Shown: positions 1 to 46,372 of the stretch, piece by piece
Numbering within the stretch: the stretch's first letter is position 1
How the letters are laid out: every line of letters begins with the position of its first letter
Virus record (IMG/VR): IMGVR_UViG_3300008266_000097
Location: 1 to 46,411 of that record
Reading direction: 5' to 3' (one strand)
Source: a virus
Length of the DNA stretch: 46,411 bases
Notes under the pieces: generated by a model
What the model saw: only the letters and a program-made list of their open reading frames with translations
Told to the model about the DNA's origin: nothing
The model's database searches: none
Program-made: the position numbers and the translations under genes

Positions 1-1343
1 TTTGGCCCATTCCAAATAAACACAAACAATTCATCTAATAACCTTTTAGAACGAATTATGGGAGATTTTTCTCTCATATAAGTATCTAACTTTGATATAA
101 TTAATGGACGGGTTTTTTGTGTTATTGAAAACCCTGGCACCATATCTTCTTTTTGTTTTAAATCCCACCCACGCCTTAAATGGATGTCCTCATCTACATA
201 CCCCAACTCTCTATACGAATAGTAAAGGTTTTGATAATTACGGTCAATAGCTTCTTGGATTACCGCCCACCCAATGTTTGCATTTTCAATTACTAAAAGA
301 GCGTTATTCCACTCCGTTGCAACTGATGTTAAAAATGCTCCATATTGTTTTGTTTCTATCTTACCCCTATACTCTGCTACCTGTTCAATTCTTTCAACAT
401 CTATGACATGAAATGCGGAATAGTCTGCACCATCACCCCTAGCAACGTCGGCAACAACAATATAGTTTTTTTCATAGTTTGGGTAATCCCATATCCAATA
501 ATTTGCATCAAACCCACGCTTTTCAACGGGTTCGGTAATATGGGTTTCACTATACCACTCTAACACACTACCATCAACAACAGTGTAACCTGATGATATA
601 AAGTCAGTATCACATTCTTGTGCAGCACCTTTTTCACCCAATAATCGGGTTTGTTCATCTCTCCATCGTTGATTTCTTTCGGGGTGAACTGTCCAATGTA
701 ATCTTGTTGGGTGCCATTTATCACCTTGCTCACCCTGCAACCAAACTTTATGAAAGAAATTACCTACACCATTTGGTGTTGAAAGAACGATAGCACCACC
801 ACCAGTTGATAATGTTGATTGTGCTGATAACCATATCTCTTCAATACCTTTGATAAATGCAGCCTCATCAATAATCAATAATGAAAGTGCTTCAGAACGG
901 CCTGCTGTTTCAGTTGCAGAAACTGCTTTAATCTGAGAACCATTCTTTAATCTAAGTGATAATTTGTTATCTTCTGCCGCAGGAACTTTTAACCAACTTG
1001 GTAGGTTATCATACATAAACCTAACTTTGGTTACAAGGTTTTTTGCTACATCCTGTGTGGTGGCAATTACAAGTATGTTCTTATCTCTATGAAACAGCAT
1101 TAACCAAGTAGCATATCCAGCACTAATAGTGGATATACCTAATTGGCGTGATTTAAGAATAACATTGAAACGATGTTCTTTAAAACTATCAATCAATCCC
1201 TCTTGGAAATCATAAAGATTAAATAGTATTTTCCCTCTATGGGGGTGTTGTATGTAACAGTATTTTTTAAAAAAGTATACTGGGTCTTTTGCACACTTTA
1301 CATACTCATCGGATATTAATTCCTTTAAAGTTTTAGCAGCCAT
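1..1343 (-). CDS. Terminase large subunit, gp17-like (3' end outside window)
   Basis: Motor ATPase and nuclease that packages DNA into the prohead. I translated 447 codons from the ATG at 1343; the C-terminus runs off the left edge. The ATPase carries a Walker A of the T4 gp17 type (SRQLGIST, residues 65-72) and a Walker B (LLIIDEAAF). The nuclease begins with an Asp motif (VVADVARGDGADYSAF) and continues with the acidic LVIENANIGW motif. The third nuclease Asp would lie beyond the window, so completeness cannot be judged. The gene starts 4 nt after the stop of the membrane protein upstream, so it is probably co-transcribed with it. The family assignment is secure. It marks this region as the packaging and structural module of a tailed phage. 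Confidence 0.93.
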   Translation of the reverse strand, partial: MAAKTLKELISDEYVKCAKDPVYFFKKYCYIQHPHRGKILFNLYDFQEGLIDSFKEHRFNVILKSRQLGISTISAGYATWLMLFHRDKNILVIATTQDVAKNLVTKVRFMYDNLPSWLKVPAAEDNKLSLRLKNGSQIKAVSATETAGRSEALSLLIIDEAAFIKGIEEIWLSAQSTLSTGGGAIVLSTPNGVGNFFHKVWLQGEQGDKWHPTRLHWTVHPERNQRWRDEQTRLLGEKGAAQECDTDFISSGYTVVDGSVLEWYSETHITEPVEKRGFDANYWIWDYPNYEKNYIVVADVARGDGADYSAFHVIDVERIEQVAEYRGKIETKQYGAFLTSVATEWNNALLVIENANIGWAVIQEAIDRNYQNLYYSYRELGYVDEDIHLRRGWDLKQKEDMVPGFSITQKTRPLIISKLDTYMREKSPIIRSKRLLDELFVFIWNGP

Positions 1344-3530: not shown

Positions 3531-4988
3531 TTACCAATATGAGTTTATATCCTCACCACCGCCGATTTTAGACCAATGGCGGGGTAGATTACAAGACCAA
3601 TAACCTGGCGATGTTTTATCGGTTTTCTCGGGACAATTATGTCTATCTGAAAACGCTTTCCTTGCCTCTGGGTCATTTATTTTCGCAGTTAATCCACCCT
3701 TTACATCCCCAAAGGTTACTTTTCTGATGTTATCACTTGATGGGTCTTTTACATATACCACATACTTTTTACCTTCATCTGGATTTCTTTTTGGTGAATT
3801 TAATTCTACTTCCCTTCCCTGATATTCTGCTTCAACCAGCATTGGGAAATCCAATAAAACTTTCTTACCCTCATACACTGCAACCTTACCCAAATCAGAA
3901 TCTAAAAACCATTCATCACTTTCGTTCATCGGCATGAACTGACCGTTTCTCCACAACTCCCTACATTCGTTTACCAACTTAAAAAATTTAGGAGAACCAT
4001 ATCTAAACACATTTTCAGAAAGTGGTTTTTTATTTTTCAAATGCCATTCCAATCCCTCACTAATTCTTTTCTTACTCTCACCCAAAGGATTACCATTTAC
4101 ATTCAACTCACCATTCAAATAATGTTTTGCATTTACCATCAACTCTTTTGCACGAATAATATCAGATTGCCACCAATGAGGAAAATCAATCTCTTTATCG
4201 GATTTATCAAATTGATTTAACATTTCGTAAAGTTCTTTTGCATATTTTGCAATACGAAACAAATCAGCTTTTAACATATTAGGTTCATCATCTTGATGCC
4301 CTAAATCAATATCTTCAGTTAAACTTTTTAACTTTTTTAATTTAGTTGTTAAATCAGCCATTTTATTCAAATGGGCTTTTTGAGAAGCAGTTCTTTTATT
4401 TTGAGGTATTTTACTAAAAGCAGCGGTATCTTTGGCATTATCTTTTAATGTTTTCTGAATACTCAGCATTTCCTTTTTTTGTGCTGCTTGTTCTTTACCT
4501 GCCTTTTTAACAGAGGATGTGGCGGGTTCATCATCATCATCATCAACTTCGGTTATTACAGGATATTTTTTTCCGTTGAATTCAAACTCTTTCAACCCTT
4601 CTTTTCTTGCATTATAAAGCGCTCCAGTAAACGCGTTACCTTCGTTTATATTATCTTGTGCAAGAATTTGAATATCTTTTATATCACCAACAAATGGGCC
4701 TTTTAAGGTTTTAATAGTTACTTTGTTTCCCTGAATCTTTAAAACCATCCCAGTTTTATTTTTTGATTTAAAGTGAACAAAATCACCAACTTCAAATCCT
4801 AAATTTTCGTTGGCTTCATCTACAGATTCTTCGGTTTTCCAACCACCACCGGCCGCTTTGTATTGTTTCGCAGCCCAACCATTGGCATATGCACTGGGGT
4901 AAACGTCAAACTTTTTCTTTGCTTGAGATTTATAATAATTCCATTTTGCTGGGTCGGTTGGAACATTCTTTTCTACTATTAATTTCAT
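3531..4988 (-). CDS. DUF5872-type protein, putative virion-internal or structural
   Basis: A 485-residue protein. Residues 10-50 match the DUF5872 pattern I remember from phages and giant viruses (PAKWNYYKSQAKKKFDVYPS, then AYANGWAAKQYKAAGGGW). An SH3/KOW-like segment follows (GFEVGDFVHFKSKNKTGMVL), then a Lys-rich helical region and a C-terminal part with a Cys pair in CPEKTDKTSPGYWSCNLPRHW. The protein starts MKLIVE, a short version of the N-terminal leader seen in neighbouring genes. Several internal xNEG or SEG sites could be protease sites. It lies in a run of putative internal proteins. Function unknown. Confidence 0.65.
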   Translation of the reverse strand: MKLIVEKNVPTDPAKWNYYKSQAKKKFDVYPSAYANGWAAKQYKAAGGGWKTEESVDEANENLGFEVGDFVHFKSKNKTGMVLKIQGNKVTIKTLKGPFVGDIKDIQILAQDNINEGNAFTGALYNARKEGLKEFEFNGKKYPVITEVDDDDDEPATSSVKKAGKEQAAQKKEMLSIQKTLKDNAKDTAAFSKIPQNKRTASQKAHLNKMADLTTKLKKLKSLTEDIDLGHQDDEPNMLKADLFRIAKYAKELYEMLNQFDKSDKEIDFPHWWQSDIIRAKELMVNAKHYLNGELNVNGNPLGESKKRISEGLEWHLKNKKPLSENVFRYGSPKFFKLVNECRELWRNGQFMPMNESDEWFLDSDLGKVAVYEGKKVLLDFPMLVEAEYQGREVELNSPKRNPDEGKKYVVYVKDPSSDNIRKVTFGDVKGGLTAKINDPEARKAFSDRHNCPEKTDKTSPGYWSCNLPRHWSKIGGGEDINSYW

Positions 4989-24046: not shown

Positions 24047-25978
24047 CTAAAATAATGGAACAACCCTGCCTCTAATATCTAAATCAGGAAACTTAACCTC
24101 AAAAATAGATGGGTCTTTTGCTGGGTATATGATACCATTTCGTGTTGCTTTTTTTATATCATAAACATTTGATGAGTATATACCATTATACTTATTAACT
24201 ATTTGTAATCCACCCTTACCATTTAAATCAGGTCTAACAACAGTCTGAACGCCATTTATTCTATCTAATAAAACATATATATCCGATAATAGTATTGGTC
24301 TATTTATTTGGCTGTTTTGTTTACTAAAATATGCTTTTAATTCATTTATACATTTTAATAAAACTTCGTTTGAATTATAGTTTGGTAATACAACTATTTC
24401 AAAATCAATACCAATGTTTATAATATAAGCATCTTTAATGTTCACCGCGTCGGTCAACATTCTATAATATGAAATGTAATTTTTAAGATTTTGTTTGGTT
24501 GCTGGATTTAATTGTGATATATTTCCATTACCGTCATACCCAAGAACATATAAATTTATTGCGAGTGGATTTGGAACTTGGAGAGTTCCAACCGATACAA
24601 CACCACTTACCATTCTATTAAAAGATTTTACTTGATAATCAGGCGCCACATATGCTTTTGCTACTGCACCAAATTGTGGTGGCATTGCGTACGCCCTTAC
24701 AACATAATCTTCAGCAGTAACAGTTCGGTTTTGTGCTGCAAAAAATGCCATAGCACTATTTCTGATATCATCAACCTCTTCGTTTGATTTACCACCCGAT
24801 GCAGCCTCTTCATTCGTAACTGCAACAGAATTTCTGACTGTATTTAATTGTTGGGTATTAGATGGGGTTGTTTGATTTTCAAATTCTATATTTGTAATTT
24901 GAGTTAAGTCTTTAGATATTACATTGTCAATCACACCCTGCCCAACTCTATAGGTTACAGTTAAGGTTGTATTTGCAGGCGCTACTCCATATGTTTTTGT
25001 ATATAAGAAATTTGAAGGGTCTATTGTTTGTGATAAATCACCCGTTGCTTTGTATAAATTAGAACCAACATTGTCTGGGTTGGGTAGTATCTCTTCATCA
25101 GCATTTGATGATACACCTGCGCCAAATTGAATTGTTATAGAACCATCTTCATCAGTTCGTGTAATATATCTTTTAGGAACTTTTTTTAATCTTAAAAGGT
25201 ATGGTGTTTCCGAACCATATTGATTTAAGTTAAGTGTATAATCAGATGTATTTTGGATTTGCTCAAAAACAGTATCTTGTGCTAAATAATCTACCTTTGT
25301 CCAAACATCTCCATCGGAATCAACTATTTTTACAACATCAATAATACCAACATCCTCAATCTTAATCTTATTGTATGGTGTTGGTGAACCAAATATAAAT
25401 TCAGATGTTTTATCTTCACCACTAACCACAGGAACGCTCTTTTTGAAAAGATAATAAACAGGTTCATCGGTATTTTCGTTTATTTGATATACTGATATTT
25501 CGGTGGGGTCAAAAGATGATGAATATGCAAAATCAACTTTCCTCGTTGTAGAAAATACTACATTTGGGTTTTGTGTTGATGATACCTGCATACCCTCTTT
25601 GATTTTTAAAGTATAATCCAAATCAGGTCTAACATTATTGCCGGAGCCAATAGCAGGAACTAATTGATATACTATTAAATTAGTTGTAGCGGGTGAGTAT
25701 AGTTTTGGTTTATATCCAAGCGATTGTGCTAACTGAAATAAGTTTGAATTTTCTTTTACTTGAGTAATAATTGATTCTCTTAACTGAGTATCCGTATAAT
25801 AAGATAGAACATCCCCAACATACGATGCCATTTCTATAAACATCATTCCAGGAGATGATTCGTTAAAATCATTATAGGTATTTGGGTAATATTGTTTAGC
25901 AAAATCTATAAGATTTTTTCTGAATCCAGAAAAATCTCTGCCAATTAAACTAACTTCTTTTTTTTCATCATTTAACAT
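24047..25978 (-). CDS. Baseplate wedge protein, gp6-like
   Basis: A 643-residue protein, close to the 660 residues of T4 gp6, with sequence typical of the gp6/baseplate J family: YPNTYNDFNESSPGMMFIEM and ASYVGDVLSYYTDTQLRES near the N-terminus, then VAVTNEEAASGGKSNEEVDD and FFAAQNRTVTAEDYVVRAY in the centre, and a C-terminal region including AYIINIGIDFEIVVLPNYNS. gp6-like dimers link neighbouring wedges into the baseplate ring and change shape on contraction. It sits next to the gp25-like gene (9 nt gap), the usual order in contractile tails. AGGAGTAGTAA precedes the ATG. Confidence 0.87.
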   Translation of the reverse strand: MLNDEKKEVSLIGRDFSGFRKNLIDFAKQYYPNTYNDFNESSPGMMFIEMASYVGDVLSYYTDTQLRESIITQVKENSNLFQLAQSLGYKPKLYSPATTNLIVYQLVPAIGSGNNVRPDLDYTLKIKEGMQVSSTQNPNVVFSTTRKVDFAYSSSFDPTEISVYQINENTDEPVYYLFKKSVPVVSGEDKTSEFIFGSPTPYNKIKIEDVGIIDVVKIVDSDGDVWTKVDYLAQDTVFEQIQNTSDYTLNLNQYGSETPYLLRLKKVPKRYITRTDEDGSITIQFGAGVSSNADEEILPNPDNVGSNLYKATGDLSQTIDPSNFLYTKTYGVAPANTTLTVTYRVGQGVIDNVISKDLTQITNIEFENQTTPSNTQQLNTVRNSVAVTNEEAASGGKSNEEVDDIRNSAMAFFAAQNRTVTAEDYVVRAYAMPPQFGAVAKAYVAPDYQVKSFNRMVSGVVSVGTLQVPNPLAINLYVLGYDGNGNISQLNPATKQNLKNYISYYRMLTDAVNIKDAYIINIGIDFEIVVLPNYNSNEVLLKCINELKAYFSKQNSQINRPILLSDIYVLLDRINGVQTVVRPDLNGKGGLQIVNKYNGIYSSNVYDIKKATRNGIIYPAKDPSIFEVKFPDLDIRGRVVPLF

Positions 25979-32908: not shown

Positions 32909-33913
32909 TTAAATTGAATGTGGTGAATAACTGAAAATAATATTTTGAACAGATTGACACTTCACTCTGATGATAGATTCTATCTCCGATTTAAATGAAT
33001 CTGAATTTTCAAAATACATTGGTTTACCATAGTAAATAAAACAAAGTGTACCTGCCTCTTCCAATACATCAATTTTATTGAACACCATATCGGTTACACC
33101 ATTTAAATTTATTGCTTTGATAAGTAAATCCATATCCAACCAATTAACTTGTCTACTCCTACCAGTGGTAGCACCATATTCATTACCCAACAATCTAATC
33201 TTACCAAAGATTTCATTATCCCCCTCAAATTGTTTTGCTCCTACATAGGTACGATATCCTTTTGCTACCCCATACACCTTTCGTATCTTTTGTGGGGGAA
33301 CACCATTCATAATAGCAGAACCAACTGTACAATGCGATGAGGTTACATATGGGTAATCACCCCAATCAATATCTAACTCAAATCCTTGAGCACCTTCAAA
33401 TAAGATTTTTACAGATGTACTACCATAAAACTCTTCGTAGATATCAATAATGTTTTTTAATTTGAATTCATCATCGCCGGCTCTAATACCTGTTCGGGCA
33501 TACTTATCCCGATACGCAGGCCCATTGCCTGTTTTGGTAGTTCCGATTTTTGTATCTTTGGAATCTTCCATCAAATGTTCGGGTCTTATCATATGCACCC
33601 TCTTATCTATGAAAAGATAATCAGATACATTAATACCTTTATCTTCCAATTCTTTCCATTCCGTATAAAGGTCTAAAATGTTTATTACACATCCAGGCCC
33701 AATGATAGATTTAATACCATAGAACACACCAACAGGAATATAGTGGGTTACAAATTTTTCTCCATTGTGATAAACGGTATGGCCGGCATTTCCCCCTCCA
33801 TTATAACGAACCACATGGGTGTATTCTTTATCTTTGGATAGGAAATGCGCAACCTTACCTTTACCAGTATCACCGGCTTGTAAATCTACAATAATATCAG
33901 CGTACTGAATCAT
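32909..33913 (-). CDS. purA: Adenylosuccinate synthetase, short (archaeal/viral) form
   Basis: A 334-residue GTP-dependent ligase that joins IMP and aspartate. Motifs: AGDTGKGK (13-20) with Asp15 at the place of the E. coli catalytic Asp13, NAGHT with His45, IGTTKTGNGPAYRDKYARTG (IMP site), FEGAQGFELDIDWGDYPYVT, GATTGRSR (247-254) and NKIDVL. It is about 100 residues shorter than bacterial PurA, like archaeal enzymes and viral PurZ. PurZ enzymes that make aminoadenine usually lack this Asp, so I favour PurA activity. A PurZ0-like role cannot be excluded. It would raise adenine nucleotide supply for this AT-rich genome. Confidence 0.87.
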   Translation of the reverse strand: MIQYADIIVDLQAGDTGKGKVAHFLSKDKEYTHVVRYNGGGNAGHTVYHNGEKFVTHYIPVGVFYGIKSIIGPGCVINILDLYTEWKELEDKGINVSDYLFIDKRVHMIRPEHLMEDSKDTKIGTTKTGNGPAYRDKYARTGIRAGDDEFKLKNIIDIYEEFYGSTSVKILFEGAQGFELDIDWGDYPYVTSSHCTVGSAIMNGVPPQKIRKVYGVAKGYRTYVGAKQFEGDNEIFGKIRLLGNEYGATTGRSRQVNWLDMDLLIKAINLNGVTDMVFNKIDVLEEAGTLCFIYYGKPMYFENSDSFKSEIESIIRVKCQSVQNIIFSYSPHSI

Positions 33914-43172: not shown

Positions 43173-43612
43173 CTTTTTGTGTAATAAAAAACACCTACCC
43201 CCGCTTCCTCAAACATTTTGATACTTCGTTCAGCGCTTTCTTCCCATTTTAACTGATTAGAACCACCACCTAACATCCATATCTCCTTAATCCCAGCGTT
43301 TATAATCCCTCTTGCACAATCTGCGCAAGGTATTCCACAAGTCATATACATCTTTGCTCCATTGGTAGATACACCAATTCGGGCTGCATTATAGATAGCA
43401 TTTCTTTCAGCGTGTTCAAACCAATAATATTTTTCAGGCCTTCTCTGCCTTTCATTAACATTATCATTAATCCCTCGTGGGAATGAATTATACCCAGTAG
43501 ATATAATCTCATTATTACTCCCAACTAACACCACACCAATTTGGGTGTTCTTATCTTTGGATTTTAATTTTACTACTTCAGCAATTTTTAAAAAGTATTC
43601 AGTCCACTCCAT
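43160..43612 (-). CDS. Deoxycytidylate (dCMP) deaminase
   Basis: A 150-residue zinc deaminase. The metal and proton-shuttle motif is HAERNAI (His67, Glu69) and the second half is PCADCARGIINAGI (Cys96, Cys99). It also has KNTQIGVVLV and SFPRGIND, as in T4 Cd and cellular dCMP deaminases, but lacks the extra N-terminal zinc site of T4 Cd. It makes dUMP for thymidylate synthesis. The gene abuts its upstream neighbour (stop/start overlap of 1 nt). Confidence 0.9.
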   Translation of the reverse strand: MEWTEYFLKIAEVVKLKSKDKNTQIGVVLVGSNNEIISTGYNSFPRGINDNVNERQRRPEKYYWFEHAERNAIYNAARIGVSTNGAKMYMTCGIPCADCARGIINAGIKEIWMLGGGSNQLKWEESAERSIKMFEEAGVGVFYYTKSLDN

Positions 43613-43896
43613 TATGAAAATTTAAAAGATAGTTTGTATTCCTTATCACCTTCAGTTTTGAAATGAATATTTTTACCCTTCCAATTTACAATTTCGGTTA
43701 TCTTATCAGAGCAAAAAGAATAGAATGAACCCATACCATCTGAATACTCAAAATCAAGAACAAGCATATTACCAACATGCGGTCCACCATCTTCCCAATT
43801 TTTGATTCCACCTCGTAAATCTCTTTGGGCCCATTTAACGGATTCGGCTTCCCAAATCCGTCCGCTGTTTACATCTTCTAATTTATACATTTTCAT
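43612..43896 (-). CDS. Unknown beta-rich protein (94 aa)
   Basis: Starts MKMYKLEDVNSGRIWEAESV. Trp- and Gly-rich beta pattern (GGIKNWEDGGPHVGNMLVLD, YSFCSDKITEIVNWKGKNIH). No motif known. It overlaps rpiB by 14 nt and the deaminase by 1 nt, so it is translated within a nucleotide-metabolism cluster. Confidence 0.6.
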   Translation of the reverse strand: MKMYKLEDVNSGRIWEAESVKWAQRDLRGGIKNWEDGGPHVGNMLVLDFEYSDGMGSFYSFCSDKITEIVNWKGKNIHFKTEGDKEYKLSFKFS

Positions 43897-44314
43897 TTAT
43901 ATTAATTGCCATCATTCTTTTAATATGTCTATCTCCCTCAAAATCGGTTTCTAAAAAAGTGTTAAGGATATCAATTGCATCATCAATACAAAGAAACCTT
44001 GCGGGTAAACAAATAATATTTGCATTATTATGCGCCCGTGCCAATCTTGCTATATCAACATCCCAACAAAGTGCCGCACGAATACCTGGCCATTTGTTTG
44101 CTGTCATACACACCCCATTACCACTACCGCATATAAGAATACCAAATTGCGATTTAAAGTTTGAACACATTTTGTGTGCGTAGTCCGGATAATCAACGGA
44201 CTCGGGAGTATTTGTTCCCAAGTCCGTTAATTCCATTCCACACTTATCCATATACTCAATCAGTTGAGTTTTTAATTCCCACCCTGCGTGGTCTGATGCG
44301 ATTAGTATTGACAT
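43883..44314 (-). CDS. rpiB: Ribose-5-phosphate isomerase B
   Basis: A 143-residue enzyme that interconverts ribulose-5-P and ribose-5-P. Motifs: ASDHAGWELK (6-15), DYPDYA (41-46), ICGSGNGVCMTANKWPGIRA (61-80) with Cys62 at the catalytic base position of the E. coli type, and ARAHNNANII (92-101). Length is that of normal RpiB (about 145-150). It would supply ribose-5-P, hence PRPP, to nucleotide synthesis together with the nearby deaminase and PurA. RpiB is uncommon among the phage metabolic genes I know. Confidence 0.93.
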   Translation of the reverse strand: MSILIASDHAGWELKTQLIEYMDKCGMELTDLGTNTPESVDYPDYAHKMCSNFKSQFGILICGSGNGVCMTANKWPGIRAALCWDVDIARLARAHNNANIICLPARFLCIDDAIDILNTFLETDFEGDRHIKRMMAININENV

Positions 44315-44328
44315 TTTTTTACCTTATC

Positions 44329-45897
44329 CTAATTTTTTATAATACGGGTTGTGTAATTTCCCGATGGGGTTGTGATATTAACAAAAAGAATACCACTTAC
44401 ATTATCTACGATAGTAACCATTGAATGGTTTTCATTGTATGTAATATCCGATTGAACATTAGAACCCATAATATTAAATACTGAAATATTTGTAATTCGT
44501 TCACCACATTCTACCATAAATTCATTTTTAATTGGATTGGGATAAACATTCATTCGGTTTGAAATATCCATATAACGGACCGATGCTATAATTGTATCTG
44601 GGTTGAAATTGGCCCATCCACTCGTCCAATCGGATTGACCAAACGCACCACGATGATAAACGGGTGTAAAGAAATTGTTTGAAAGTCGTGGATTTGAAAA
44701 AGAAGCGCCCATCAATAAAACACTATTTTGTTGTGGTAGTACTTGTGGGTTTGTTAGATTATTATAACCCGAAGATAATCCAAGTTGAGATGTACTATCA
44801 AATACCTCATTCCCTCGTAAGGTATCGTTAAAATAATTCAACATCCCAGCCCAAGTATTCGTACCCTGTGTTTGTTCAAACTTATTAGTCATATTAGCAA
44901 ATACCACTCTTTCAATTTGGAGTGAATCATTGGTTGCATTTAATTGAGCAGACGAACCATCAATATGCAATCCAGTCGGATATCCCATAAAAAGGGAATT
45001 GTAGACCGATGTACGAGTGTTCCTACGAAGATGTAACGCCCTACGATAAAGAGAAGCAGGTCCACCATTTTCTTTTGGACCGATGATAGTTACATTAGAA
45101 AATATTGGAGCAGTTTGTGGTGTGTTTGAAGTCCCCGTTCCATCGTTATCGGATTCAAATCCGTTTGATTGAGATTGGTCTGCAATCTGCGGGTCACGCA
45201 TTGAAAGAGCAAATTGAACTTTTCCTCTATAACCAAAATCAGTATCAAAATCATCATCCCATCCACGATGAGCAATCAAATACTTGCAATTGACTGTACC
45301 ACCAAACCATTCATAGGAATCATCACCAGAATAGGATACTTGAACATTCTCAACCACAGTCTTACTACCAACCCCACCAAATGTCAATCCATTGATTTCA
45401 CTATTGGGTTGATATGCTATGCCGGGAAATTCAATGCGGACATATCTAAATACACCCGAACTATCTTCATCATCAGTTCCACCATAAGTAGCATCTTGTC
45501 CTAAGAGACCACCTTCAATAATACCAACTCCACCAGGAATGTTTGTTCTAGCGTTTCCTAATATTACAACCCCACCCCAATCACCATAGGTTCGTTGACC
45601 GGCTCGTTGATTTGATGTAAAGATAATTGGTTGATTCACCGTTCCGTTTGCATAGATACGGCCGGTCTTTGTAATAATAAGCGTACCCTTTGATGCTTTA
45701 TCACCTCTGATAATTGTACCCGGTTCAATTGTTAGTGTTGCACCATTCTTTACAAACCGATTACCTTCTAATAAATAAATTGTTCCACTATTCCAAGTGG
45801 TGTTTGTTGTAATATCTGTTCGGATAGTATCAACTGTAGTTTGCGCTTGTGCGAAACTAAACATGCTCAAAAGAGCGAGAATAAAACTTTTTTTCAT
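44329..45897 (-). CDS. Secreted T9SS cargo protein with beta-helix-like domain
   Basis: A 522-residue protein. A signal peptide (MKKSFILALLSMFSFAQAQ) is followed by a large repetitive beta domain: LEGNRFVKNGATLTIEPGTI, GDKASKGTLIITKTGRIYAN, DWGGVVILGNA, VQVSYSGDDSYEWFGGTVNC and HRGWDDDFDTDFGYRGKVQF. The last 75 residues form a T9SS type A sorting domain: MNVYPNPIKNEFMVE (449-463), ISVFNIMG and SGILFVNITTPSGNYTTRII. The body matches a protein type I remember from many Flavobacteriia. Host T9SS would carry it across the outer membrane. It sits among phage tRNAs and metabolic genes, so it is a cargo gene. Its function on the cell is unknown. Confidence 0.9.
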   Translation of the reverse strand: MKKSFILALLSMFSFAQAQTTVDTIRTDITTNTTWNSGTIYLLEGNRFVKNGATLTIEPGTIIRGDKASKGTLIITKTGRIYANGTVNQPIIFTSNQRAGQRTYGDWGGVVILGNARTNIPGGVGIIEGGLLGQDATYGGTDDEDSSGVFRYVRIEFPGIAYQPNSEINGLTFGGVGSKTVVENVQVSYSGDDSYEWFGGTVNCKYLIAHRGWDDDFDTDFGYRGKVQFALSMRDPQIADQSQSNGFESDNDGTGTSNTPQTAPIFSNVTIIGPKENGGPASLYRRALHLRRNTRTSVYNSLFMGYPTGLHIDGSSAQLNATNDSLQIERVVFANMTNKFEQTQGTNTWAGMLNYFNDTLRGNEVFDSTSQLGLSSGYNNLTNPQVLPQQNSVLLMGASFSNPRLSNNFFTPVYHRGAFGQSDWTSGWANFNPDTIIASVRYMDISNRMNVYPNPIKNEFMVECGERITNISVFNIMGSNVQSDITYNENHSMVTIVDNVSGILFVNITTPSGNYTTRIIKN

Positions 45898-45940: not shown

Positions 45941-46279
45941 TTATTTCCAAAATATTTGTATCAGTATAATAACTCCTGAAAGGATTAAACATACCATTGT
46001 TTTTGTGGTTAGGTTTTCTCCAAAAAGTAATTGTGAAAGTATAGCAAAAACCACTACCCCAATACCAAACCCAATAAGACGAGATGGCCAAAGTAATCCA
46101 CCATAATGAGTGATGATTTGACGAACCGATTCCATATACATCATTGATATAGGAATACCCATCAATACAATAACCCAATAGTTATCTTTGAACCATTGGT
46201 ATTTTAACTGACCCTGGAGTTGATAGAAAGTAAGTATCTGCGCCAAAAGCATCAGTAACATTCCGATTAAAAGTGCCAT
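45941..46279 (-). CDS. Small four-helix membrane protein (DMT/EmrE-like layout)
   Basis: A 112-residue protein with four predicted membrane helices (about 2-20, 32-52, 62-85 and 92-110) and little else, the size and layout of small multidrug-resistance-like DMT proteins. I do not see the EmrE membrane Glu in helix 1, so drug/proton antiport is not supported. Part of helix 3 reads GGLLWPSRLIGFGIGVVVFA. Possible transporter or membrane modifier. It follows tRNA-Pro by 19 nt. Confidence 0.6.
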   Translation of the reverse strand: MALLIGMLLMLLAQILTFYQLQGQLKYQWFKDNYWVIVLMGIPISMMYMESVRQIITHYGGLLWPSRLIGFGIGVVVFAILSQLLFGENLTTKTMVCLILSGVIILIQIFWK

Positions 46280-46298
46280 TTTTTATTTTTTAAGTTAG

Positions 46299-46372
46299 TA
46301 GGGGAAGCGGGACTCGAACCCACAACCTCGTGCTCCCAAAGCACGTAATCTAACCAATTGATATATTCCCCT
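46299..46372 (-). tRNA. tRNA-Pro(UGG)
   Basis: 74 nt with discriminator A, no CCA. Acceptor AGGGGAA/TTCCCCT, anticodon arm CGTGC-TTTGGGA-GCACG, T arm GTGGG-TTCGAGT-CCCGC. Canonical. Confidence 0.92.

Follow-up and report, generated by a model that had tools for sequence, protein, structure and literature searches.

Cyanophages carry pstS and phoA, phosphorus-uptake genes with PhoB-type sites that are under the control of the host PhoB. To our knowledge, the phage genes for phosphorus described so far have products that work in the periplasm or in the cytoplasm. Phage proteins with sorting domains of the type IX secretion system (T9SS) and phage-encoded TonB-dependent receptors (TBDTs, or TBDRs) are already known from published reports (PMC7468147, PMC6949934, PMC9723777). 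Cryophage has three T9SS cargo genes with type A sorting domains, for which use of the host T9SS was proposed and which vary between phage variants (PMC7468147), and sorting-domain proteins were also reported for gut phages (PMC6949934). A sequence-only reading of the DNA analysed here had stated that no phage T9SS effector was described, which in the light of these reports is wrong. One entry among viral structures carries a T9SS sorting-domain name as well. A TonB-dependent receptor termed 'SusC' was described in the megaphages Mar_Mega_1 and LR745206, with a proposed role in carbohydrate uptake (PMC9723777). On the bacterial side, ElpS of Caulobacter crescentus is a surface lipoprotein found at phosphate starvation, and its gene lies beside a TonB-dependent receptor (PMC2996285). 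The lipoproteins FI, FII and FIII of Flavobacterium johnsoniae (PUSIII/PUSIV) are induced at low Pi and have polygalacturonase-like models (PMC8115612). FI, the most abundant low-Pi exoprotein, is clustered with a TBDT gene and FII with phoBR in PUSIV, and plant-associated Bacteroidota were proposed to rely on TonB-dependent systems for phosphorus uptake (PMC8115612).

The window, i.e. the whole stretch of DNA that was analysed (46,411 bases), is an entire virus record. It encodes a 522-aa protein with a body that is presumably like that of ElpS and FI. The features of the gene and of its surroundings are compiled in Table 1.

Table 1. Coordinates of the beta-helix gene, the parts of its product and other features of the window.
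Feature	Position	Strand	Basis
522-aa T9SS-type predicted surface beta-helix protein, presumably ElpS/FI-like body	44329..45897	(-)	intact ORF, ATG start
Putative signal peptide, residues 1-19, AQA↓Q	45841..45897	(-)	by-eye reading of translation; pLDDT <50 for residues 1-20
Right-handed beta-helix body, residues 20-437	44587..45840	(-)	AlphaFold2 model; VIA-align Z ~18-23; dN/dS 0.12-0.15
T9SS type A C-terminal sorting domain, residues 451-522	44332..44547	(-)	PF18962, TIGR04183 above cutoff
112-aa membrane-protein-like gene, directly upstream	45941..46279	(-)	weak PHROG 1395 QacE-like match
tRNA-Pro, upstream of operon	46298..46372	(-)	tRNA call
Ribose-5-phosphate isomerase B (rpiB), directly downstream	43883..44314	(-)	PF02502 E=8e-52; 9 viral loci
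94-aa conserved phage gene, downstream border of variable slot	43612..43896	(-)	recurs across viral loci
Baseplate	24047-25978		phage gene in window
Terminase	3-1343		phage gene in window

The sequence-only reading had described the signal peptide, the beta-helix-like body and the T9SS type A C-terminal domain (CTD) as intact, and this was borne out for the body and the CTD. The open reading frame is exact and both sorting-domain models scored above cutoff (Pfam PF18962, residues 451-520, 32.7 bits against a cutoff of 27; NCBIfam TIGR04183, residues 451-522, 34.1 bits against 23). A by-eye inspection of the translation gave the putative signal peptide, which consists of KK, a hydrophobic run and AQA↓Q. 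An AlphaFold2 model, for which a 20-row alignment served as input, revealed a beta-helix and a separate C-terminal beta-domain (mean pLDDT 84.7, pTM 0.79). The modelled C-terminal domain matched NucA (8glk_D, E 6.5e-3, TMt 0.68) and the RemA CTD (8gl6_D, E 2.5e-2, TMt 0.80), and RgpB CTDs were also among its fold matches. Ig-like domains without any relation to T9SS scored equally, hence the match is unspecific and the fold supports the assignment as a T9SS CTD but is no proof alone. The modelled body resembled right-handed beta-helices at the Z scores given in Table 1 and at 5-14% identity (50 structures listed), among them NosD, polygalacturonases, PL6 lyases, C-5 epimerases and phage tailspikes. 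In the model, these matches give the fold of the body, not its function. The body is under purifying selection in nine pairs (dN/dS in Table 1), while the CTD (dN/dS 0 to 1.09) changed faster and kept its reading frame. Database searches with the 522-aa protein yielded no PHROGs family at E<=0.01, no match with E<=0.001 among the viral structures of BFVD, and in the PDB sequence search a single weak match, to the CTD (E 0.14). A tail spike or depolymerase was considered and rejected: the protein carries a putative export signal and a CTD, rpiB and a deaminase are the neighbours that could be named, and the matches to solved structures are of the general beta-helix kind.

The gene lies among phage genes and tRNAs, as had been noted before; the window contains a terminase and a baseplate gene, and tRNA-Pro, Leu, Arg and Gly are found near the gene. 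A protein search of viral contigs returned 14 loci, 11 with the CTD form at 66-98% identity and three with a form without CTD; the gene is present in related phages. The terminase profile phrog_2 matched in 22 of 41 records tested. Syntenic gene copies together with a clear terminase (E<=1e-31) were present in five window-clade contigs of 75-228 kb (G002, G006, G008, G010 and G013). Such syntenic copies within other phage contigs exclude host DNA joined by mistake, which had earlier been named as an objection, and on the same ground an assembly artefact was rejected. A phage-borne gene whose product is built for export and handling by the host T9SS is supported.

Several genes recur around the beta-helix gene: the 112-aa gene upstream, and rpiB, the 94-aa gene and a dCMP deaminase downstream. 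Of the viral loci, 19 have a member of the cluster of the 112-aa gene near the beta-helix gene, and in 18 of them the two share a strand; the two genes are probably co-transcribed. The 112-aa gene recurs near the beta-helix gene even across other phage clades. For a comparison of the slot that is flanked by the 112-aa and 94-aa genes, the nearby 719-aa gene was used as query, which gave 76 loci. The slot is variable in content. Twelve close relatives reach it and ten of these contain the beta-helix gene; one of the other two (L238) has a different 221-aa gene, and the second (L242) has a GNAT-like gene (by eye) and an LpxH/PlcP-type phosphoesterase gene. No beta-helix match was present in the available flanks of any of the 62 more distant loci with the 719-aa gene. 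Elsewhere in the window (32909-33913), an adenylosuccinate-synthetase-like gene matched PHROG 1211 (2-aminooxy adenylosuccinate synthetase), with PurA/PurZ models below cutoff; perhaps the genome of this phage contains modified adenine.

The wider family was collected by alignment queries, in which 150 viral stretches of IMG/VR and at least 569 stretches of bacterial and archaeal genomes were found to encode relatives. The best 80 of the 150 and the best 80 of the at least 569 were retained. Among the matches listed, the best identity to bacterial or archaeal relatives was 56%. The viral set comprised 83 loci (the window, L002-L016 and L099-L165) and the bacterial set 80 (L019-L098); two short unverified faecal contigs (L017, L018) were left out of all viral counts. 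Two delivery routes are seen in the viral set. A plain signal combined with a C-terminal T9SS-type extension is encoded by 22 of the 83 loci (12 distinct proteins). The extension is lacking in the other 61 (48 distinct proteins); a lipobox is present in 59 of these, and the remaining two are truncated at the 5' end. A CTD broken in related phages, considered earlier as a point against the gene, was observed in part: TIGR04183 was above cutoff in six of nine CTD-form proteins scanned (window, L007, L009, L014, L103, L108), but below the cutoff of 23 in L011 (19.9 bits) and L100 (16.5 bits) and absent in L099. None of the two lipoprotein forms scanned scored above cutoff.

Phylogenetic trees were calculated without rows that were near-identical at 93% and without viral ORFs open at the 5' or 3' end. 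The window clade (8 rows) had an SH-aLRT of 100, its T9SS sub-clade 98 and its lipoprotein sub-clade 100. Proteins of the sister clade (L012, L013, L015) lack a CTD and show a lipobox, and the window form has the CTD in place of the lipoprotein signal. This split of one clade into a T9SS and a lipoprotein sub-clade indicates that the delivery tag changed within one phage lineage. In a quick tree, viral rows appeared in five places. A single viral origin was rejected (p-AU 7.5e-8; 61-row subset of 125 with 15 of 42 viral rows, LG+G4 without mixture), hence the family was acquired by phages more than once. One viral row (L016) groups with proteobacterial rows in a long-branch join, and its placement is unsure. 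Other architectures were also encountered. Among the bacterial homologues, L024, L029, L044 and L083 are long proteins, reaching 1,836 aa, and in some of them a YPNP end resembles that of a sorting domain. In the Kaistella order (L212-L231), a genome contains as many as five matches at E<=1e-40; several of these matches have a plain signal and neither a lipobox nor a CTD-like end. A second gene in L099 (12670-14604) has a cohesin-like match, a borderline sorting domain (26.8 against 27 bits) and a strong PhoB-type repeat upstream (18.2).

The family is tied to TonB-dependent receptors. In 65 of the 80 bacterial loci (best 80 of at least 569) a TBDT gene was located within 500 bp on the same strand, a raw count that includes whatever base rate holds for an arbitrary Bacteroidota gene; several of the 15 loci without an adjacent TBDT stop at a contig edge. 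By the same measure, a TBDT accompanies the gene in 50 of 83 phage loci, namely in 49 of 61 without CTD and in 1 of 22 with CTD. A Pfam check of three phage TBDTs found the plug domain in all three and the barrel domain in two. In the 635-kb phage LR745206 (L016), a plug-domain TBDT directly adjoins a lipoprotein of the beta-helix family. No TBDT lies beside the window gene, nor beside the genes of the sister clade L012, L013 and L015. A TBDT search with one query protein, which matched in 8 of 30 records overall, found none in the 11 window-clade T9SS-form contigs, records that are possibly fragments. Since no TBDT match was found on the contigs of its phage group, the window protein would need a host receptor. 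Within the Kaistella order, a homologue is present in 77 of 148 genomes. Seven of these genomes supplied 20 regions for comparison; a TBDT match was found in 7 of the regions and none in 13, so TBDT-less paralogues are common there. Pseudoalteromonas has ExbB/ExbD/TonB, the homologue and a TBDR near one another; there was no TBDR near the Marinobacter homologue.

Relatives in bacteria and viruses often lie among phosphorus-uptake genes. In the flanks covered for the bacterial loci (best 80 of at least 569), a response-regulator cluster was found in 15 of 80, a kinase cluster in 11 and a PstS-like cluster in 8. The PstS model TIGR02136 was above cutoff in all five PstS candidates tested, and PhoB models were the best match for all four regulators tested, each below cutoff. 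A kinase, a PhoB-like regulator, a TBDT and the homologue occur together in 5 of the 20 Kaistella-order regions (five genomes). The Sphingomonas and Indioceanicola homologues adjoin TBDR and T2SS genes. On the phage side, the slot of the beta-helix gene contains or adjoins an LpxH/PlcP-type phosphoesterase gene in three loci (L006, L015, L242). In L006 (phosphoesterase at 3896-4573) both genes are nearby, and in L015 the phosphoesterase lies directly upstream. The phosphoesterases of L006, L015, L114 and L242 have a calcineurin-like domain; of the NCBIfam models an LpxH-type one scored highest, at a value far under its cutoff, and no PlcP model was among the matches. A phosphoesterase search matched in 5 of 40 records, and the L006 protein had no match in the window. 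In L242 (4826-5524) and L006 (3896-4573), the phosphoesterase has a GNAT-like neighbour and occupies or borders the slot. Six further phage loci (L114, L116, L118, L119, L161, L163) have genes for a TBDT, a beta-helix lipoprotein, a family-2 glycosyltransferase and an LpxH/PlcP-type phosphoesterase in a row, the last being cut in L118 at the end of the available stretch. Such a row would suit phage-driven lipid remodelling at phosphorus starvation.

Among 96 bacterial upstream regions, a 7-bp direct repeat at 11-bp spacing was detected, CTTAACA-N4-CTTAACA. The best repeat word was present in 28 regions, compared to 0 in one shuffle. PhoP, of the same regulator family, is described with seven-base repeats and a four-base spacer (PMC4832192). 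A weight matrix was trained on the 96 bacterial upstream regions, and simple two-base-block shuffles served as control. A score above 11 was reached by 53 of the 96 regions, which are the training set, and by 10 of 480 shuffles. Among 47 dereplicated phage operon upstream regions, which lie outside the training set, 14 scored above 13, compared to 2 of 635 other ORFs of the same loci (Fisher 8e-16, a p-value that overstates independence because the phage sequences are related). At a score above 11 the counts were 16 of 47 and 16 of 635, the controls rising at the lower threshold. The 14 repeat-bearing phage operons belong to four of the five viral tree groups. In L008 and L009 the repeat (15.0) precedes the pair of 112-aa and beta-helix genes and is flanked by a tRNA-like stretch on one side and the 112-aa gene on the other. 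The matrix found no repeat in the window before the beta-helix gene (-1.1) or the 112-aa gene (-3.2), and no good repeat in L002, L003, L005-L007, L011-L013 and L015. PstS-like genes carried the repeat in 3 of 11 cases, compared to 10 of 333 controls. Among the bacterial control ORFs with high scores, eight were scanned. Three of them bear phosphate labels (DUF47/PhoU_div and two Porin_O_P), an acyltransferase and the M28 and S66 peptidases make up three without such a label, and the other two gave no match.

On balance, we lean towards the window gene encoding a phosphorus-scavenging surface protein that acts with a TBDT. The company that its relatives often keep with phosphorus-uptake genes suggests that the virus probably helps a starved host to collect phosphorus. 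The gene would be the phage counterpart of beta-helix surface proteins of the phosphate-starvation programme, such as ElpS in Caulobacter and FI/FII in Flavobacterium, and we infer that it acts like these relatives. Against this reading speak the lack of a TBDT match on the contigs of the window phage group, the low repeat scores before the window gene and in most of its clade, the rise of the controls at the lower threshold, the small share of PstS-like genes with the repeat, and the homologues of the Kaistella order and of Marinobacter that have no TBDT nearby. In a phosphorus-starved Bacteroidota host, the Sec machinery and the T9SS would place the protein on the cell surface during infection; in the sister phages the lipoprotein route would deliver it. 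There it may bind or process phosphorus compounds, presumably a phosphate ester or Pi, and pass them to a TBDT, which would be the host's own in the window phage group and phage-encoded in most lipoprotein-type phages. The phage would benefit in that the captured phosphorus would feed its DNA synthesis. Of the earlier suggestions for the protein (a block to other phages, altered adhesion or gliding, nutrient capture), nutrient capture, and specifically that of phosphorus, is favoured by the comparative evidence, and receptor blocking stands as its rival. The tie of the family to TBDTs, the lipoprotein-anchored sister phages and the PhoB-type repeats go beyond the sequence-only reading. A broader picture is possible, and we put it forward tentatively: large Bacteroidota phages might carry a modular outer-surface phosphorus cassette, consisting of a TBDT, the beta-helix partner and in some phages a glycosyltransferase and an LpxH/PlcP-type phosphoesterase that possibly strips phosphorus from membrane lipids. 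The PhoB of the starving host would induce it, and the tag of the partner would be exchanged between T9SS and lipoprotein, perhaps according to the host.

The chief rival, which we regard as unlikely, is receptor blocking, i.e. superinfection exclusion by a protein that caps a host TBDT serving other phages as receptor. Lipoprotein Llp of phage T5 blocks FhuA in this manner. A host receptor as target would suit a family that pairs with TBDTs and yet lacks an adjacent one in 21 of 22 T9SS-form loci (12 distinct proteins), and the gene is accessory (L238 and L242 lack it), which is common among exclusion genes. However, in 49 of 61 lipoprotein-type phage loci the gene adjoins the phage's own TBDT, and the PhoB-type repeats upstream as well as the phosphoesterases in or beside the slot point to nutrition.

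Capture or cleavage of carbohydrates, by a surface protein that acts on glycans in the manner of SusD or a lyase, would fit the resemblance of the body to polygalacturonases, PL6 lyases and C-5 epimerases and the carbohydrate uptake proposed for the megaphage 'SusC' (PMC9723777). We consider it rather improbable: a beta-helix fold shared at the low identity found to the 50 solved structures listed shows no function, phosphate is indicated both by the gene neighbourhood and by the upstream repeat, and the relatives are described as Pi-induced in the published reports. It is hard to believe that the gene is a passenger, either a recently captured host gene useless to the phage or an assembly join. 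Its accessory state (missing from 2 of 12 slot-reaching loci and unseen in the flanks of the 62 more distant ones) and its G+C content of 37.5%, compared to 33.8% for the window, would agree with this. Against it stand the conservation of syntenic copies at 66-98% identity in phage contigs, the purifying selection on the body and the repeated acquisition indicated by the rejected single viral origin (p-AU 7.5e-8).

If the phosphorus-scavenging reading is true, phages refit the outer surface of their host for phosphorus uptake, and the megaphage 'SusC' (PMC9723777) could also be understood as one half of a phosphorus system. In the sister phage clades one body occurs in a T9SS and a lipoprotein version, which amounts to a natural experiment on the two delivery routes, and the repeated capture by phages makes the function of the family, in bacteria too, open to testing. 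A literature search of titles and abstracts, with most subscription journals outside its coverage, returned no phage ElpS-like or TBDT-partner proteins, nor their pairing with receptors, the upstream repeat or an exchange of delivery tags.

Compared to the described systems, the cargo genes of Cryophage are similar to the window gene in that both are sorting-domain genes inside phage genomes and shared by related phages (PMC7468147). The Cryophage cargo consists of an endoglucanase, a GH39 and a PA14 protein; in the accessible part of that report a beta-helix protein, a link to phosphate or TBDTs and a lipoprotein sister form are not mentioned (PMC7468147). The gut phage proteins, encoded beside BACON-repeat genes, share the T9SS sorting domains and are otherwise different proteins (PMC6949934). 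The likeness to ElpS lies in the TBDR-T2SS synteny shared by the Sphingomonas and Indioceanicola homologues, a link made by synteny and published descriptions; ElpS is a proteobacterial lipoprotein, whereas the window protein has a T9SS sorting domain and no adjacent TBDR (PMC2996285). Synteny and descriptions also provide the link to FI/FII, with PUSIV resembled by the kinase-PhoB-TBDT-homologue cluster in 5 of 20 Kaistella-order regions (PMC8115612). FI, FII and FIII are chromosomal lipoproteins, in contrast to the CTD-bearing window copy, which belongs to a phage clade (PMC8115612). The megaphage 'SusC' is likewise a phage-encoded TBDT, and the TBDT of LR745206 that adjoins a homologue of the family comes from the same phage and may be the reported 'SusC' gene; a beta-helix partner is unmentioned in the part of that report at hand (PMC9723777). 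Cyanophages again offer a comparison of place. Their pstS and phoA act in the periplasm or the inner membrane, whereas the window protein would act at the outer surface of Bacteroidota.
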